NCBI RefSeq assembly: GCF_016907995.1
Contig: NZ_JAFBDA010000001.1
Location: forward strand, 310,001-374,000
Direction of reading: 5' to 3'
Length of the DNA stretch: 64,000 bases
Origin: Clostridium sardiniense
GTDB taxonomy: Bacteria; Bacillota; Clostridia; Clostridiales; Clostridiaceae
The translations under genes were made by a program, and so were the position numbers. The notes under the pieces are model-generated. The model worked only from the letters and a program-made list of their open reading frames with translations. It did no database searches and had not been told where the DNA came from. Shown here piece by piece: positions 27,999-61,744 of this stretch. How positions within the stretch are numbered: the stretch's first letter is position 1; each line of letters begins with the position of its first letter.

Positions 27999-28098
27999 TA
28001 TAAAAATAATTTGTCGAAATTTTCAAAAAATAAATAGAAAATATATTGAATTTTATGTAAAATAATAGTAAAATTTTACTAAGAAATAAAATTAAATA

Positions 28099-28169
28099 GG
28101 CAAACTTAGAGAAATCTAGGGACGCAAAGCTATAGGGACTAAGGTTTAAAACTATGTCAGCCAGTTGCC
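28099..28169 (+). ncRNA. Cyclic-di-GMP-I (GEMM-I) riboswitch aptamer
   Basis: The aptamer shows P1 strands GGCAA (28099) and TTGCC (28165), a hairpin CTTAGA-GAAA-TCTAGG with GNRA tetraloop, the conserved GACGCAAAGC linker, and a second helix whose receptor side includes ACTAAGG and TCAGCC. This matches the GEMM-I consensus closely. It lies about 150 bases before the M60 peptidase gene, with a terminator hairpin between, so c-di-GMP is expected to control transcription of that gene. The sign of the response cannot be read by eye. Confidence 0.93.
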
Positions 28170-28252
28170 AAAGGGTACATTATACTTTTTGTTTTTAAGA
28201 TTAGTTAATTATAATTATTGATTATAATTTATTAATTTCATTATGTGTATAC

Positions 28253-28320: not shown

Positions 28321-31300
28321 ATGAATAAGAAAAAAGTAGCAGCTATAATTATGGCTGCAATAATCACAAATTTTTCAGTTACAGCAGTAGAAGTTTTTGC
28401 AGATGAATTAAATAGCAATAAAGTGATTCAAAACATATCAAATGAAAATAATCAAAATAAACAACAAACAAAAGCTACTGTAAATAAATTTAATTTAATT
28501 AGTAGTGAAAACTTAGAAGCGTACAATAAAGCTTTTAAAGTTGATAATTCTAAAATAATTTCAATAACTAATAATGGTGGAAGATATGGAAGTAGTGCAT
28601 TAAATAGAGTAATAGATGGTGATTTAAATACTCACTGGGAAACAGGGAAACCAAATAACTCAAATTTTAAAAATGAAATAGTATTTGAACTTAGTGAAAA
28701 AACAACATTAAATAGAATAATGTATAAATCAAGACCCGGCAACAAAGGTTTTGCAAAAGAGTTTAAGATATATGCATCAAGTACTAGTAAAGGTGATGAC
28801 TTCCAATTAGTCTCGTATGGCTCAGCTGAAGTAACTTCTGATTTATTAGAGATTAAATTTAATTCTACAGAATTTAAAAGAGTAAAATTTGTATTTGAAA
28901 AAGCTAATGCTGATTGGGCAGCAGCCTCAGAAATAATGCTTTATAAAGAAGATAAAGCAACTGATGAAGTAAATGATTTATTTACAGATGAAACTAAATA
29001 TAAATTAAAAGATAAATACAAAGATATAAATGTAATAAAGAACTTAGAAGAACAAGTAGCAAACCATCCATTAAGAAAAACTCTTTTAAATGATATAAAT
29101 ATAGCTAAAGATCTTTTACATAGTAGCGATGAAGAGCAGTCAACATATTCTTTAATTAAAATATCAGATATAGCAAAATCTAAAGATTTAGCTAAGTATA
29201 ATGAAAAATACAAGATAAGTACAGATAATTTCAAAAGTGTAACTAATAATGGTGGTAATTATGGAAGTAGTGTACTTACAAAACTTTATGATGATAATAA
29301 AGACACTCATTGGGAAACCGGGAGAGGAAATGATGATAACTTTAAAAATGAAGTAGTATTTACATTTAAAGAAATACAAGAAATAGAAAGAATTATTATG
29401 TCATCTAGAAAAGGTCAAGAACATAAAGGATTCCCACTAGAGTATGAAATATATGGTTCTCTAAATGAAAATTCTAATACATATAAATTAATTTCTAAAG
29501 GAAAAGCAAATGGTGTTATGTCAGAAGACACTGAAATAGTATTTCCTAAGACTAAATTTAAGAAGTTAAAATTCAGATTTGTAACTGCTTATAATTATAG
29601 AGCGGGACTTGCTGATATGTCATTTTATAAAGAAGATACAACGACAAGAAAGGTAAACTCTGTATTTAAAGATAAGTTATATACTAAAATATCTGAAGAC
29701 TATAATACGATAGATAAACTAAATAAGCTAGAAGAAGAAGTAAATAATCATCCTCTAAAAAATGATCACATGGAAATAATTAATGCGGCAAAAAAAATAG
29801 TAAGTAAAAATGAAGTAGAAACAATAAGCCAAATAATAACATTATCTCAAAGAGGCAATGAAAACAATCAAAGAGATAAAAGAAGACAAGTATTTGCAGG
29901 TGGAAATTTAGATTTAACAGGATATTATGTGATGCCAGATAAAGCATTTGAAGTATATGTAGATGCAGATGAAAATGGTATATTACCACAATTAGTTATG
30001 GCACAAGTTGGTGAAGTTGATAGTTCGGGAAGGCATATAAGAAGCTTAAACGCAGGTAGAAATATAATAAAAGCTCCAAGTGGAACAACGGGATTTGCAA
30101 TATACTTTACTAATAAAGCTTTACCTGAAGAACAAACATATGCACCAAAAGTTAGAGTGGCAGGGGAGAATTTAAAAAAGTACCCTGTATACATAGATGG
30201 TAAAACAAATATAGATGATTACATAGGGCAAGTGAAGAATCACAAAGGCGCCAACATGACAGATGTAATAGGAGAGCGATTCTTAATATCAGGAAAAAAT
30301 AGTGAAGCTAAGATAGCATATGTAGATAGAGGTAAAAGCCCATTAGATGCAGTTAACGCTTTTAAAAAGCTTATATCTTCATTTGACAAATTAGCAGGAT
30401 ATGATAAAAACGATCCAAATCCAATACATAGACCATCAAAAGCTCTATATCACTATAAAGGTAGTAATGCAAAGGGATTATTTGCATCTAATGAATATAT
30501 TCATTATGAAGGAAGTATAGCAAGAGATATATTTGCAGGAAACTTCTCTGATTGGGGAATAGGTCATGAGTTTGGACATCAAATAGAAAATGGTGATATG
30601 AGACTTCTAGAAGTTACTAACAACGTATTCTCAATAGCAGCACATAAATCAAACATAGGTTATATAGGAAGAGACTTTACTTGGAATCAAGCTAATATTG
30701 ATAAATACTTTACTTTTAAAGGAACTAAAGGATTTGGTGGATTCCCAGGTGATAATTTTAAATATAAACTTGGATTATTCGAAAGATTGTTAGTTATAAC
30801 TCAAATAACAAATTATTTCGGAGACGAAGCCTATTCTAATGCAAGTAGACTAATTAGAGAAAATCCTTCTAGATATGGAGCAACTGGGGATTATCAAGCT
30901 ATAATTACTGCAATGTCAGAAGCAACAGGCTATGATTTATCTGGCCACTTCGAGTATTATAACTACCCTGTAACTGATAAGACAAAAGAGTTCACTTCTC
31001 AGTTTAAACCATTCAATAAAAAGATAAGATATACTACAATAGATACTTATAAGAAAATAAATGATAATGTTGAAGCGTTTAATGAAGAAACTAAGGCAGT
31101 TATAACTTCTGTAAAGAAAGATAAAGATGGATTTACAATAAATATAGGAACAAGTGATAACAATAAAGGAACTATAGCTTATGAAATATATAGAGATGGA
31201 GAATTTGTTGGATTCACAAGAACAGGTAGTTATAAAGACTTAACTGATAGTTCTAAAGAATACGATTACCAAGTTGTAGCTTTTGACTATAGAGTAAATG

Positions 31301-32943
31301 AACGTAAAAGTGAAGTATTCAAAACTGCATCTATAATATATAAGCCAGTTTTAAGAGTAGATTCTGAAAATATATTAGTAGAGAAAAATAGTGAATTCGA
31401 CCCTTTAAAATATGTAAGTGCACTCACATTTGATGAAAAATCTATACCAAATTCTAGAATAAAGGTAACGAGTAATGCTGACACTAAAACTAAAGGAAAG
31501 TATAAAGTTACTTATGAAGCAGAGGATAAGGGGTATACTACATCAAAAACTGTATATGTTACTGTTTTTGAAAAATTAGATGTTAAGAAGTCTAAGTATG
31601 GACAGGTTAATAACTTAGCTAATTACAATAAAGAATATAAGATACCAGTGGTTTCTGTAAGTAACAACGGCGGAAACTATGGTAATAGTGTTATAGGAAA
31701 CACTATAGATGGTAAACAAAATACGCATTGGGAAACTAAAACTCCAAATAGTAGTTCATTCAAAAATGAAATAATATTTGATCTAGGTGAATCTAAAGAA
31801 ATTTCAAAAATAGCGTACGGTGCTAGAAGAGATGCAGGCAATAAAGGATTTGCTACTAAGTTTGAAATATATGTTTCTAACAAAGTAGAAGGTAATGACT
31901 TTATATTAACAGGAAAAGGTGAATACAAAGGAAGTGCATCAGATATTGTTGAATTTGATATGGATAAAACTAATGCAAGAAGAGTTAAGTTTAAGTTTAT
32001 AGATGCTAATGCTAATTGGGCAAGTATGAATGAAATAGGATTCTATAAAGAAGACACTATAGCTAAGAAGATATCAACTGAATTATTCACTGATAAATCT
32101 AAATCTGAAGTTGAAAAAGCATACAATACGTTAGATAAATTAAATGCATTTAAAGAAGAAGTTAAAGATTATCCAGCTTACAAATTCTTTAAAGGAGATT
32201 TTGATAAAGCAGAGAAATTAATAAGAGCAACATTCCCAACATTAAAGATAGCGAAGTCTGAGTCTACAAAAGTAGGAGAGCCTATAGATTTAACTATTGG
32301 ATATAGTGCACACGATACTAAAGATGGTGACTTAACATCTAAAGTTAAAGTAACTGGATACGTTAACTTTAATAAACCAGGAAAATACAATCTAACTTAT
32401 AAAGTAGCAGATAGTGATGGAAATGAAGTAGTTAAAACTAGAACAGTTGCAGTAGTTAATATGAAAGATTATAAATATCTAACTGAGTATGACTGGAAGA
32501 GTGCTAAAACAGGATGGAGTACTGTTAAAAAGGATAAAGCAGTAAGTGGTAATGCTTTAAGACTTACTGGAGATAATAATAAAGAAGTTACTTATGCTAA
32601 AGGTATAGGAACTCATGCACCATCAACTATAATCTATGATTTAACTGATAAAAATTATGCTTACTTCACTTCTTATGTAGGTGTGGATAGGGCCATGTAT
32701 GGAAGTGTAGGTTCAGTAAAGTTTGAAGTCTATGTAGATGGAGAAAAGAAATTTGATAGTGGGTTAATGAACTCAAGAGATCATCAAAAATATGTTGAAG
32801 TTAATATAAATGATGCTAAAGAATTAAAGCTTGTAGTAACTGATGGTGGAAATGGAAATGGTTCAGATCATGCTACATGGGGAGATGCTAAACTTCATTT
32901 TGCTAATAATAATGAAAGTAAAGAAAAAAACTTAGAGAATTAG
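28321..32943 (+). CDS. Secreted M60 metallopeptidase with CBM32-like and CBM51 domains
   Basis: Secreted protein of 1540 residues, similar in layout to the Zmp mucin O-glycopeptidases of C. perfringens. A signal peptide (1-27, VFA-DE) leads to F5/8C (CBM32-like) domains at about 62-214 and 282-441, an M60 region at about 525-900 with zinc site HEFGH (749-753) and E764 completing HExxHx10E, an Fn3-like domain (about 923-1000), an Ig-like domain (1003-1085), a third F5/8C domain (1091-1244), a second Ig-like domain (1305-1380) and an NPCBM/CBM51 domain (1381-1527). No LPxTG anchor is visible. GGGGGGAA precedes the ATG. Downstream of the stop another frame stays open to 33032 and would follow if one A were added near 32929, so the true C-terminus may be longer. 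Confidence 0.93.
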   Translation: MNKKKVAAIIMAAIITNFSVTAVEVFADELNSNKVIQNISNENNQNKQQTKATVNKFNLISSENLEAYNKAFKVDNSKIISITNNGGRYGSSALNRVIDGDLNTHWETGKPNNSNFKNEIVFELSEKTTLNRIMYKSRPGNKGFAKEFKIYASSTSKGDDFQLVSYGSAEVTSDLLEIKFNSTEFKRVKFVFEKANADWAAASEIMLYKEDKATDEVNDLFTDETKYKLKDKYKDINVIKNLEEQVANHPLRKTLLNDINIAKDLLHSSDEEQSTYSLIKISDIAKSKDLAKYNEKYKISTDNFKSVTNNGGNYGSSVLTKLYDDNKDTHWETGRGNDDNFKNEVVFTFKEIQEIERIIMSSRKGQEHKGFPLEYEIYGSLNENSNTYKLISKGKANGVMSEDTEIVFPKTKFKKLKFRFVTAYNYRAGLADMSFYKEDTTTRKVNSVFKDKLYTKISEDYNTIDKLNKLEEEVNNHPLKNDHMEIINAAKKIVSKNEVETISQIITLSQRGNENNQRDKRRQVFAGGNLDLTGYYVMPDKAFEVYVDADENGILPQLVMAQVGEVDSSGRHIRSLNAGRNIIKAPSGTTGFAIYFTNKALPEEQTYAPKVRVAGENLKKYPVYIDGKTNIDDYIGQVKNHKGANMTDVIGERFLISGKNSEAKIAYVDRGKSPLDAVNAFKKLISSFDKLAGYDKNDPNPIHRPSKALYHYKGSNAKGLFASNEYIHYEGSIARDIFAGNFSDWGIGHEFGHQIENGDMRLLEVTNNVFSIAAHKSNIGYIGRDFTWNQANIDKYFTFKGTKGFGGFPGDNFKYKLGLFERLLVITQITNYFGDEAYSNASRLIRENPSRYGATGDYQAIITAMSEATGYDLSGHFEYYNYPVTDKTKEFTSQFKPFNKKIRYTTIDTYKKINDNVEAFNEETKAVITSVKKDKDGFTINIGTSDNNKGTIAYEIYRDGEFVGFTRTGSYKDLTDSSKEYDYQVVAFDYRVNERKSEVFKTASIIYKPVLRVDSENILVEKNSEFDPLKYVSALTFDEKSIPNSRIKVTSNADTKTKGKYKVTYEAEDKGYTTSKTVYVTVFEKLDVKKSKYGQVNNLANYNKEYKIPVVSVSNNGGNYGNSVIGNTIDGKQNTHWETKTPNSSSFKNEIIFDLGESKEISKIAYGARRDAGNKGFATKFEIYVSNKVEGNDFILTGKGEYKGSASDIVEFDMDKTNARRVKFKFIDANANWASMNEIGFYKEDTIAKKISTELFTDKSKSEVEKAYNTLDKLNAFKEEVKDYPAYKFFKGDFDKAEKLIRATFPTLKIAKSESTKVGEPIDLTIGYSAHDTKDGDLTSKVKVTGYVNFNKPGKYNLTYKVADSDGNEVVKTRTVAVVNMKDYKYLTEYDWKSAKTGWSTVKKDKAVSGNALRLTGDNNKEVTYAKGIGTHAPSTIIYDLTDKNYAYFTSYVGVDRAMYGSVGSVKFEVYVDGEKKFDSGLMNSRDHQKYVEVNINDAKELKLVVTDGGNGNGSDHATWGDAKLHFANNNESKEKNLEN

Positions 32944-56912: not shown

Positions 56913-56941
56913 TTGAATATTAAATAATTTGAGCGTATAAT
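56913..56941 (+). promoter_or_regulatory. Promoter of hisS leader
   Basis: TTGAAT (56913-56918), 17-bp spacer, TATAAT (56936-56941). Transcription would start near 56948, giving a leader of about 230 bases before hisS. Confidence 0.78.
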
Positions 56942-56971
56942 ATTTAGTAATATTATTTTAGGAGGAAAGTT

Positions 56972-57022
56972 ATGATAACACTTAATATTATTAAACAAAG
57001 CAAAATACATCATCATTACTAG
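56972..57022 (+). CDS. His-rich leader peptide of hisS
   Basis: ORF of 16 codons with AGGAGGA 8 bases upstream, encoding MITLNIIKQSKIHHHY. The three consecutive CAT codons near the end match the logic of his-operon leader peptides, in which scarcity of charged tRNA-His stalls the ribosome. The His codons overlap an RNA segment that can pair with 57074-57088. The downstream gene is a histidyl-tRNA synthetase, which supports the reading strongly. Confidence 0.78.
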   Translation: MITLNIIKQSKIHHHY

Positions 57023-57151
57023 AGACTTGGTCTGTAAAAAATCAGATACAAGTCTATTAGCATTAGGCTTGTATCTCTAGGTAATGATAAATTAAGTGAA
57101 ATCATAATTTATTTAGAGCCATGTGGGATATATGCCTACATGGCTTTTGTT
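57010..57151 (+). promoter_or_regulatory. Histidine attenuator of hisS
   Basis: ATCATTACTAGAG (from 57012) can pair with CTCTAGGTAATGAT (57075-57088), enclosing the hairpin AGATACAAGTCTA / TAGGCTTGTATCT. The 3' strand can instead pair as ATAAATTA / TAATTTAT (57087-57112). The terminator AGCCATGT (57117) / ACATGGCT (57138-57145) with TTTTGTT follows. Mutually exclusive foldings plus terminator are the layout of a transcription attenuator. Confidence 0.72.
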
Positions 57152-57179
57152 ATATAAAAAATATATAGGAGTGATTAAA

Positions 57180-58475
57180 ATGAAAAGAAATATTATAAAA
57201 CCAAGCATACTACCAGGATTTATGGAGCTACTACCAAAGGATCAACAAATATTTAATAATATAGTATCTAAAATAACAAAGGTATACGAAGATAATGGAT
57301 GTTTAGCAATAGATACACCAATAATAGAAAAAGCAGAAGTATTACTTGCAAAGACTGGTGGAGAAACAGAAAAGCAAGTATATAATTTTCAAAAGGGAAA
57401 GAACAACTTAGCTTTAAGATTTGACTTAACAGTACCATTTGCTAGATATGTAGCACAATATTATAACGACTTAGTATTTCCATTTAAAAGATATCAAATA
57501 GGAAAGGTATATAGAGGCGAAAGAAATCAAAAAGGTAGATATAGAGAATTTTATCAATGTGATATTGATGTTATAGGCAAAGAAAAGTTAAGCATAGATA
57601 ATGATGCATGGGTTATAAGTTTAGCTTCTAAAGCTTTTAAAGCGATAGGATTAACTAATTATAGATTTCAAATAAGTAATAGAAAGATATTAAAAGGTAT
57701 ATTAGATGAATTAGAAATAGAAAAAGTTAATGAAGTTATGATATTAATAGATAAGTATGAAAAGATAGGTAAAGAGTTGTTTTCTAAGGAGTTAAAAAAT
57801 CTTATAGGAGCTTATAAAAGTGAGTATATTAATAAAATATTAGATATAAGTGGCACTAATAAAGATAGAATAGAAGAACTTTTAAAACTTAATATTAAAA
57901 ATAAAGATTTTATTGAAGGAATAGAAGAGTTAGATAAGGTGTGTTTTATATTATCAATATTAGGTGTAAGTGATGAAGAATTTGAAATAAATTTAAAGAT
58001 AATAAGAGGTTTAGATTATTATACAGGAACAGTTTTTGAAACGATATTAATAGGAAATGAAGGCTATGGCTCTATTTGTTCAGGGGGAAGATATGATAAT
58101 TTAGCTGGAAATTATACTAATAATATATTACCTGGAGTTGGTATATCAATAGGTATAACTAGATTATTCTTTGTTTTAAAGGAAATAGGATTTATAGATA
58201 AATATGAAATGAAAAAAGGTTTAGATTATTTAATAATTCCAATAGGAGATACAATTGAATATTCATTAGAAGTTATGAAATGTATTCAGCAAAATGGAAA
58301 GAAGGTTACAATTTATTTTGAAGAGGATTCATTAAAGAAAAAAATGAATTATGCTAATAAAATAGGTGTTAAGAATGTAATATTAATTGGTGAAGATGAG
58401 GTTAAAAGGAATGAAGTAAATATAAAAAATATGATTTCTGGTGAGAGTAAAAGTATTGATTATAAGTTGCTGTAG
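57180..58475 (+). CDS. hisS: Histidine-tRNA ligase
   Basis: Class II synthetase of 431 residues charging tRNA-His. Motif 2 region FPFKRYQIGKVYRGERNQKG and YREFYQCDIDVIG, His-specific LDYYTGTVFE and GSICSGGRYDNL, motif 3 GVGISIGITRLF, and a C-terminal anticodon domain (about 345-431) are all present. The N-terminus (IKPSILPGFMELLP) differs from the usual PRGTxD start, so it belongs to the second clostridial HisS type, possibly an accessory copy. The ATG at 57180 has AGGAGTG upstream; the frame from 57123 overlaps the terminator and is rejected. Confidence 0.92.
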   Translation: MKRNIIKPSILPGFMELLPKDQQIFNNIVSKITKVYEDNGCLAIDTPIIEKAEVLLAKTGGETEKQVYNFQKGKNNLALRFDLTVPFARYVAQYYNDLVFPFKRYQIGKVYRGERNQKGRYREFYQCDIDVIGKEKLSIDNDAWVISLASKAFKAIGLTNYRFQISNRKILKGILDELEIEKVNEVMILIDKYEKIGKELFSKELKNLIGAYKSEYINKILDISGTNKDRIEELLKLNIKNKDFIEGIEELDKVCFILSILGVSDEEFEINLKIIRGLDYYTGTVFETILIGNEGYGSICSGGRYDNLAGNYTNNILPGVGISIGITRLFFVLKEIGFIDKYEMKKGLDYLIIPIGDTIEYSLEVMKCIQQNGKKVTIYFEEDSLKKKMNYANKIGVKNVILIGEDEVKRNEVNIKNMISGESKSIDYKLL

Positions 58476-58702: not shown

Positions 58703-58849
58703 ATGGAATCAGCTAAAAATGGATGCTCTATAGAATTTAATCTAAGAGATAATGTTAATAAACTGAAAGATTTGGTGGTAAATAATATGAAGAAATATTT
58801 AAAAATGCATCCAAAGAATAGGATTTGCTCTGTACAAATCAATAGGTGA
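58703..58849 (+). pseudogene. Small coding remnant
   Basis: A frame open upstream of 58703 reads VVDYMESAKNGCSIEFN and VNNMKKYLKMHPKNRICSV, ending at 58849. No ribosome-binding site fits. Probably the tail of a lost gene; family unknown. A GCTCTGTACA / TGTACAGAGC hairpin (58827-58864) spans its end. The rest of 58476-58980 is non-coding. Confidence 0.4.
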
Positions 58850-58980
58850 AACGTTGTACAGAGCGTAGAAAAAAGTTTCATCAAAAATTTATTGTATTTA
58901 GTAACTTTTATGAAACGTTTAATATGAAATTTTGTACATCGTTTTTGATTAATTAAAAATGATTATTAAAGGAGTAAAAA

Positions 58981-60754: not shown

Positions 60755-61744
60755 ATGTGTACAGCATTAAGTATTAAATCAAACGAAGGACATAATTTCT
60801 TTGGGAGAAACATGGATTTGGCATATAACTTTAATCAATCAGTTTTAATTGTACCAAGAAATTATAAGAACGAAAATAAAGCCACAGGAAATATTATGAC
60901 ATGTAATTATGCAATTATTGGGATGGGAACTGTTATTGATAATCATCTTGCTATGGCTGATGGCATGAATGAAAAAGGATTAGGATGTGCAGGATTGAAT
61001 TTTGCAGATTATGCTTACTTTGAAGAAAAGCTAGTAGAAGGAAAAAATAATATTGCACCATATGATTTTATATATTGGGTATTAGCTAATTATGAAACAG
61101 TAGATGAAGTTAAAAATAATATTAAAGATATAGAACTAGTAAATGTTCCTATAAATGAAAGTACACCAGTAGCAATGCTTCATTGGATGATCTGTGATAA
61201 AGCAGGAAAATCAATAGTAGTTGAAAAGACTAAAGAAGGGATTGCAGTTTATGATAATCCAGTAGGAGCTATGACTAATAACCCAAAATTTGATTGGCAT
61301 TTAACAAATTTAAATGAGTATTTATATATTACTCCTAATCACCCAAAAGAAGCTAAATGGAGCAATAAGAATTTAAGAGCATTAGGTATTGGAGCTGGAA
61401 CATTAGGAATTCCAGGAGATTTTGCCTCTGTTTCAAGATTTATAAGAATTGCATATATTAGAGCTAATATGCCTAATATAAAAGATGATGAAGCTGCTAT
61501 TACTCAGTTTTTCAATATGCTTGATTATGTAAAAATGGTGAAGGGTGGAGTTATAACAGAAGATGGACTAGAAGACTTAACTACATATACAGCTTGTATG
61601 AGTCAAGAAAAAGGAATTTACTATTATAAAAATTATTATAATAATAGAATAAATGCTGTTGATATGAATAAGGAAGATTTAGATGGAGATGAAATTAAAA
61701 AATTTCCATACTTAATAAAACAAGATTTTAATTATCAAAATTAA
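60755..61744 (+). CDS. bsh: Bile salt hydrolase (choloylglycine hydrolase)
   Basis: Ntn-hydrolase of 329 residues, the same length as the C. perfringens enzyme, that deconjugates glycine- or taurine-linked bile acids. The nucleophile C2 is exposed after Met removal; R18 and D21 lie in FFGRNMDLAY, with MTNNPKFDWHL and FASVSRFIRI supplying the Asn and Arg of the active site, and GMNEKGLGCAGLNF the substrate loop. No signal peptide. GAGGTGA precedes the ATG. Co-transcribed with the HTH regulator. Confidence 0.95.
   Translation: MCTALSIKSNEGHNFFGRNMDLAYNFNQSVLIVPRNYKNENKATGNIMTCNYAIIGMGTVIDNHLAMADGMNEKGLGCAGLNFADYAYFEEKLVEGKNNIAPYDFIYWVLANYETVDEVKNNIKDIELVNVPINESTPVAMLHWMICDKAGKSIVVEKTKEGIAVYDNPVGAMTNNPKFDWHLTNLNEYLYITPNHPKEAKWSNKNLRALGIGAGTLGIPGDFASVSRFIRIAYIRANMPNIKDDEAAITQFFNMLDYVKMVKGGVITEDGLEDLTTYTACMSQEKGIYYYKNYYNNRINAVDMNKEDLDGDEIKKFPYLIKQDFNYQN

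Follow-up and report, generated by a model that had tools for sequence, protein, structure and literature searches.

The window analysed here is a stretch of 64,000 nucleotides from Clostridium sardiniense. It carries on its forward strand a gene for a second histidyl-tRNA synthetase (hisS, 57180–58475), the product of which scores 387.1 bits on the TIGR00442 model (cut-off 286.75). The protein is 31% identical to a paralogous HisRS encoded elsewhere in the genome; on TIGR00442 the paralogue has the higher score, 507.9 bits. On NF009085, the histidine--tRNA ligase equivalog, the window HisS reaches 273.6 bits, under the cut-off of 540. Its best matches among solved chains are the HisRS structures 3net and 6nhi, followed by eukaryotic cytoplasmic HisRS. 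A uup RNA (RF03060, 48.3 bits) is found at 58818–58864, between hisS and a gene for a metallo-beta-lactamase-fold protein and not before a uup gene. Elsewhere in the window there is a c-di-GMP-I riboswitch (28089–28172, 80.9 bits) just before an ORF of 1540 residues (28321–32943) without any NCBIfam match up to 1e-5, and a gene for a choloylglycine (bile salt) hydrolase (60755–61744; NF038245, 429.7 bits, above the cut-off of 350).

The region upstream of hisS contains a series of features, all on the forward strand. A promoter, TTGAAT-17-TATAAT (56913–56941; 10 of 12 matches by direct reading and scan), is followed by the Shine-Dalgarno sequence AGGAGG (56960–56965, by direct reading; comparable sites stand before the other leaders described below) and by a leader ORF of 16 codons, MITLNIIKQSKIHHHY (56972–57022), which ends with the stop codon UAG at 57020–57022. 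Three CAT codons at 57008–57016 form the putative His sensor. A terminator hairpin at 57115–57147, of which the scan found one with 0.1 expected, is separated by about 33 bases from the start codon of hisS, the ATG at 57180. A preliminary description of this DNA had claimed the promoter, a strong ribosome-binding site, the 16-codon leader with its three CAT codons and the terminator, and all were found in place. The scanned region contains five promoter-like sites with 4.0 expected, so that the window site alone is not significant; among 32 orthologous loci, however, 28 have a promoter of at least 10 of 12 matches at a comparable distance from the leader, as against 6.4% of single-base shuffles. 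The loci without such a promoter are L006, L013, L020 and L033.

Several alternative helices can be drawn between the leader and the terminator. Segment 1, AGACUUGGUCUG (57023–57034), begins immediately 3' of the stop codon and can form a helix (1:2) with segment 2, CAGAUACAAGUCUA (57043–57056), the other partner of which is segment 3, UAGGCUUGUAUCU (57064–57076). Segment 3 in turn can pair with segment 2 or with the terminator loop. The terminator has a 5' arm, AGCCAUGUGGG (57117–57127), and a 3' arm, CCUACAUGGCU, that together with the start of the U tract covers 57135–57148; its loop and the start of the 3' arm make up element L (57125–57138), the candidate antiterminator partner of segment 3 (3:L). 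In a further helix, the codon stem, His codons 2–3, codon 4 and the stop (57012–57025) are paired with UCUCUAGGUAAUGAU (57074–57088). The preliminary description had alternative pairings involve the His codons. The codons do pair, in the codon stem, but the core switch of 1:2, 2:3 and segment 3 with the terminator loop sits 3' of the stop codon.

No T-box (RF00230) was found in the window at gathering score or in the window element (L001) up to E = 10, which agrees with the preliminary description. The proteobacterial His leader (RF00514) was likewise absent from the element at gathering score and, up to E = 10, from L001. At gathering score the element had no match to any other Rfam family either, L001 being searched up to E = 1.

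A search of the genus gave some protein match in all 68 genomes, 36 of which have a full-length orthologue at E <= 1.4e-177. These 36 and L038, where the match covers 71 residues and has one in-frame stop, are the 37 hisS loci examined. A leader of the HHH type precedes 32 of them; none was found before L017, L034, L035, L036 and L037. The leaders comprise 14–18 codons, the last of them encoding HHH, HYH or HHCH and at most two more residues, their His codons being CAT in 88 cases and CAC in 11. The absence of conserved leader His codons from homologues had been named beforehand as an observation that would count against the proposal; the codons are conserved in these 32 of 37 loci, and a His-codon leader with a transcription attenuator stands as the best reading. 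The accompanying remark that such control would be unusual in a clostridium has to be withdrawn: the leader is common in the genus, and predicted His-leader attenuators are already in print for Firmicutes (see below).

Among 80 named relatives beyond the genus set, 13 were judged to carry a His leader. They comprise close relatives or genus members met before (L039–L043), four loci with the same layout at about 52% protein identity (L044, L046, L049 and L050) and four with a His leader of different sequence (L053, L068, L077 and L090). HH-type ORFs at L054, L057, L058, L072 and L117 look incidental and were set aside. T-box leaders were seen downstream of hisS at L044:4518–4778, L049:4438–4699, L101:4390–4583 and L064:2330–2526.

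Covariation was analysed in alignment A1, consisting of the 32 hisS elements of the genus, by comparing two-sided changes with 500 shuffles. The terminator is paired in 98.9% of cells and has two-sided changes in 5 pairs and 19 cells (0/500). For the 1:2 helix the values are 98.3%, 3 pairs and 7 cells (cells 0/500). Covariation of the 2:3 helix (97.6% paired) is weak, with two-sided changes in 2 pairs (158/500) and 3 cells (47/500). The antiterminator 3:L is paired in 90.8% of cells, with 5 pairs (2/500), 6 cells (1/500) and a covariation score reached in 0/500. The codon stem, 87.4% paired, has two-sided changes in 5 pairs (13/500) and 25 cells (0/500), 22 of the 25 cells lying in columns 13–15. 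What occupies these columns in most rows is codon 4, which encodes Tyr, His, Cys or another residue; six rows have a gap ahead of the third His codon, and there the columns contain that codon as CAC or CAT. The codon thus varies at these positions without loss of pairing. Hairpin PD (57087–57112) showed no covariation in A1 and does not overlap the terminator arms, and was dropped as a candidate antiterminator. A GGCUU:GAGCC pairing of segment 3 with the terminator base, seen by eye and not counted by a tool, was inconsistent across rows. Segments 1–3 are strongly conserved in sequence.

Alignment A2, of 40 rows, covers the wider group introduced below. Here, the 1:2 helix has two-sided changes in 10 pairs (2/500) and 72 cells (0/500), outside the Rfam model RF04312 discussed below, and the 2:3 helix in 12 pairs and 90 cells (0/500). 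For segment 3 against the 5' arm of the terminator there are 13 cells (0/500) but 4 pairs, a number often reached by shuffles (105/500). Sequence comparison supports 1:2, 2:3, the terminator and the 3:L antiterminator as mutually exclusive helices; for 3:L, covariation lends support that is modest within the genus, and there are misfits in folding.

The behaviour of the switch was modelled by constrained folding, with an assumed ribosome mask of 13 nt. In the window element, with RNA polymerase just past the terminator loop and the first His codon in the A site, the pairing probability is 0.99 for 1:2 and 0.94 for 3:L. With the ribosome at the stop codon of the same transcript, 2:3 reaches 0.97 and 3:L 0.01. 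The ribosome-free transcript forms the codon stem (0.88) and 2:3 (0.73), with 3:L at 0.00; in a slightly longer transcript it is less settled (codon stem 0.67, 3:L 0.24). For the full transcript at equilibrium the terminator wins in every ribosome state, so the outcome of the switch would have to be kinetic. Over the 32 elements, with the polymerase just past L, the median for 3:L is 0.83 at the first His codon, 0.83 at the second and 0.00 at the stop. 3:L is higher at the first His codon than at the stop in 32 of 32 by script count, yet L024 and L030 print 0.00 in both states. It exceeds 0.5 at the first His codon in 23 of 32 elements, and is below 0.2 at the stop in 28 and in the ribosome-free state in 26. 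Misfits are found at the first His codon (below 0.5) in L019, L020, L024, L026, L028, L029, L030, L031 and L032, at the stop (0.2 or more) in L011, L013 (0.74), L022 and L033, and without a ribosome (0.2 or more) in L001 (0.24), L007, L011, L013, L025 and L027. The comparison of ribosome-free and stalled states, proposed as a check on the attenuator, gave the expected logic for the window element, although several relatives fit less well.

These data lead us to propose that the element is very likely a ribosome-mediated transcription attenuator that controls the second hisS in response to uncharged tRNA-His; its leader His codons very probably let ribosomes sense histidine shortage. When charged tRNA-His is ample, the ribosome would get to the stop codon and cover segment 1, so that 2:3 could pair, L would be left free and the terminator could form. 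When it is scarce, the ribosome would wait at the first or second His codon, and segment 1, being free, would pair with segment 2 before segment 3 is made. Segment 3 would then capture the terminator loop as it emerges, and hisS would presumably be transcribed. If no ribosome is on the leader, the codon region would pair just 3' of segment 3 and thereby favour 2:3, which would keep the gene off in the majority of relatives, though not in every one; the codon stem is a probable default-off arm.

Three models were used to search for related elements. Model R1 matched 40 of the 68 genus genomes and 79 of the 206 family genomes at E <= 0.1, weak terminator-like matches included. Some strong matches lie before genes other than hisS, namely a HisZ-like gene (L163) and sodium symporters with Phe-rich leaders (L168, L169 and L176). 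The element at L149:501–644, which closely resembles the hisS elements (143.6 bits on R1), has an HHHT leader before an ABC family-3 solute-binding protein (PF00497), which perhaps serves a histidine transporter. Ten partial matches of 70–129 bases (L164, L167, L171, L172, L173, L175, L178, L179, L182 and L183) have no fitting leader and look terminator-only, while L153 and L155, also without a leader, look like decayed or truncated copies. With model R2, matches at E <= 0.001 were obtained in 89 of 204 family and 20 of 293 class genomes.

Of the sites found in this way 99 were examined, and in 92 the downstream gene could be classified by a match to a reference protein at 1e-20. The leader codon run fits the downstream gene at 91 of these 92 sites, whereas shuffled labels average 43.4 and never exceed 60; the count includes related genomes, which are not independent, and a lenient Phe/Tyr class, and the gene-to-residue expectations were read from the data for transporters and follow from gene function for His and Cys. 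The count leaves out the 32 genus hisS elements of A1, already-read sites without a new locus and opposite-strand shadows. At least 18 of the 92 sites had contributed sequence to R2; with these set aside, the fit is 73 of 74. The sole misfit, L279, shows an HHHHR ORF without the Shine-Dalgarno pattern used. The fits are His before HisZ-like genes or HisS (23), Cys before CysS (1), Leu before one SNF subfamily (9), and Phe/Tyr before another SNF subfamily (41), an ABC permease or TrpX-like gene (11) or a BrnQ-like gene (6). Gene names rest on the reference proteins; among those for HisZ, the hisZ cut-off is passed by L202 and L208 but not by L198 (222.2 of 271.65). Four of the seven unclassed sites have some run leader, three have none. 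CCC and CCCC leaders with the same layout precede cysS at L222 and L285. At L283 and L284 the leader MLNFQFIKLNNGYNI, Asn-rich near its end, stands before a gene read by eye as aspS; it is a speculative thought that this leader senses Asn-tRNA, if the AspRS is non-discriminating.

Model R3 was built from 34 elements before genes other than hisS, 10 of them of HisZ type with His codons inside the model. In the window it finds the entire element (57004–57149, 48.1 bits, E = 9e-7), the next matches being one of 19.5 bits, at this terminator but on the other strand, and one of 18.2 bits elsewhere. Since the HisZ-type training elements hold His codons, part of the match to the window element may come from these codons. 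R3 recovers 30 of the 32 genus elements at E <= 0.001 and L027 at 0.0076; L024 was not found in this search. L044, L046, L049 and L050 are found, L090 weakly (E = 0.01), whereas nothing up to E = 1 was obtained in L053, L068 and L077 (loci with a His leader upstream of hisS), in the five leaderless loci or in the canonical hisS. Within its own genome the window element comes second, behind L184 (G000:C4:152056–152215), an R3 training sequence (96 bits) in which a Tyr leader, AYYFNYYR, and the same switch precede an SNF-family symporter. Weaker matches of 33.5–35 bits at G000:C4:150425–150542, G000:C10:38273–38391 and G000:C1:406362–406469 may be further attenuators or chance. In the window element, segment 1 lies 3' of the leader stop and is complementary to segment 2, and the element looks like a His-specific branch of a modular group, with codon runs that are swapped to suit the downstream gene.

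A probable part of this group has an Rfam entry, the trpB motif (RF04312), described as a strong riboswitch candidate with more than 900 members in Firmicutes and Fusobacteria; in the passages cited here, the authors do not rule out a classic attenuator (PMC11109978). As described in those passages, the motif resembles the window element in having a 2:3 hairpin followed by an intrinsic terminator, with an antiterminator in the right shoulder of P1 (PMC11109978). The Rfam model differs in that it begins at P1, so that both the leader ORF and segment 1 fall outside it. On RF04312 the window element reaches 29.0 bits, below the gathering score of 59, and is the third of 15 weak matches in its own genome (E = 0.09); L163 (57.6 bits), L180 (55.8) and L046 (52.2) are also sub-threshold. 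A scan of the class gave matches at E <= 0.001 in 21 of 393 genomes, none above the cut-off, and one of the phylum in 5 of 348, one of them above it. In a third scan, of a class taken as Bacilli by inference, 14 of 398 genomes matched at E <= 0.0001, 10 of them above the cut-off. One of 14 named control genomes (Lactococcus lactis) matched in each of the three scans, never above the cut-off.

With a codon-run threshold set after the data had been seen, a run leader precedes 22 of the 28 matches of the first two scans (108 of 5600 shuffles, 1.9%) and 13 of the 16 of the third (45 of 3200, 1.4%). No run leader was found at L206, L209, L213 and L221; L194 and L214 are under the threshold, but FYFYW and F..F leaders are present. 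In the third scan 15 of 16 leaders contain Trp, the remaining one being HHHH before a HisZ-like gene. All 11 matches above the cut-off have an upstream leader ORF with a Shine-Dalgarno sequence and at least one Trp codon, 10 of them two. The gene downstream of L220 is a TrpX equivalog (624.7 bits, cut-off 390), and those downstream of L228 and L233 match the same Pfam family of binding proteins; L227 and L230 have no downstream ORF in the stretch read. In a separate observation, RF02863 ('Enterococcus sRNA 2410') scores 68 bits (cut-off 61) on the Phe-leader element L176:638–836, and this sRNA may belong to the modular group as an attenuated leader.

Four other explanations were weighed against the attenuator. 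The element could be a ligand riboswitch or a protein-binding RNA, as first proposed for the trpB motif, with the short ORF incidental. The filing of the motif as a strong riboswitch candidate (PMC11109978, in the passages cited) and the strong sequence conservation of segments 1–3 would fit this, but the run leaders are far more frequent at RF04312 matches than in shuffles, and the leader residue tracks the downstream gene, which a ligand model does not predict; we regard it as very improbable. Only slightly less remote is a switch decided by whether the codon stem (57074–57088 with the His codons and stop) is occupied, with 1:2 secondary. The codon stem has the most two-sided cells of the helices counted within the genus and is the main ribosome-free fold of the window element. 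A ribosome covers the region at the His codons and at the stop alike, however, so that the stem alone cannot tell starvation from plenty, and 1:2 covaries strongly in the wider group.

That the terminator wins at equilibrium would also suit a plain conserved terminator and leader which set a fixed low level without a histidine response. Such an arrangement leaves unexplained both the exchange of codon runs with gene function and the covarying, mutually exclusive helices, and appears extremely unlikely. T-box control is common for synthetases in Firmicutes, and an Rfam run on 20 of the 80 named loci placed a T-box directly upstream of hisS in the relative L048. For the window element, control by uncharged tRNA-His through a T-box is refuted at the sensitivity of the RF00230 searches given above, and its probability is negligible.

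With the ribosome-mediated attenuator as the preferred reading, we consider it likely, with good confidence, that the hisS leader and the trpB motif are branches of one modular attenuator group across Clostridia and probably Bacilli. This group would combine a constant switch (segments 1-2-3-terminator) with an exchangeable codon run. The runs observed are His, Trp, Tyr, Phe, Leu and Cys, with Asn as a possible further one. On this view the trpB motif, rather than being a riboswitch, would form the 3' half of an attenuator with a leader peptide, a ribosome-reading counterpart to the T-box. This would give a concrete answer to what the orphan riboswitch candidate senses, the position of a stalled ribosome on a leader peptide. 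Firmicutes are best known for T-boxes; the group suggests a second modular system for amino acid shortage beside them, the specificity of which changes by codon swap. Leader codons would also allow prediction of transporter specificity, for example Leu versus Phe/Tyr among SNF-family symporters.

His leaders have been predicted before hisS*/hisZ in Bacillus (Naville and Gautheret, 2010; PMC2965389). According to the passages cited, these resemble the window element in combining a predicted His-codon leader and a terminator before a HisRS-family gene of Firmicutes; they are reported for bacilli, and the likeness drawn here is one of description. Candidate His attenuators before his operons are described for the B. 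cereus group, Peptostreptococcaceae with Lutispora, and Erysipelotrichales (Ashniev, 2022; PMC9413887). They share three to five His codons, a terminator and an antiterminator, and occurrence in Firmicutes including Eubacteriales, but stand before biosynthesis operons of other lineages, and the passages cited do not name Clostridium hisS. For the cysS leaders at L222 and L285 a parallel by description is uORFC-8-2 of Rhodobacterales, where, in the passages cited, cysS has cognate leader codons and a predicted ribosome-mediated attenuator; that system is alphaproteobacterial (PMC8632094). In the open-licence literature we found no description of leader peptides at the trpB motif or upstream of hisS of Clostridium sensu stricto, and no link of the hisS element to a modular group including RF04312; this is no proof of absence.

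In the enterobacterial his and trp attenuators, the position of the ribosome on cognate codons chooses between antiterminator and terminator. Ribosome position on cognate codons would decide in the window element as well. The element differs in having no match to the proteobacterial His leader model and in its architecture: segment 1 follows the stop codon and would be freed by stalling, and the antiterminator would take the terminator loop.
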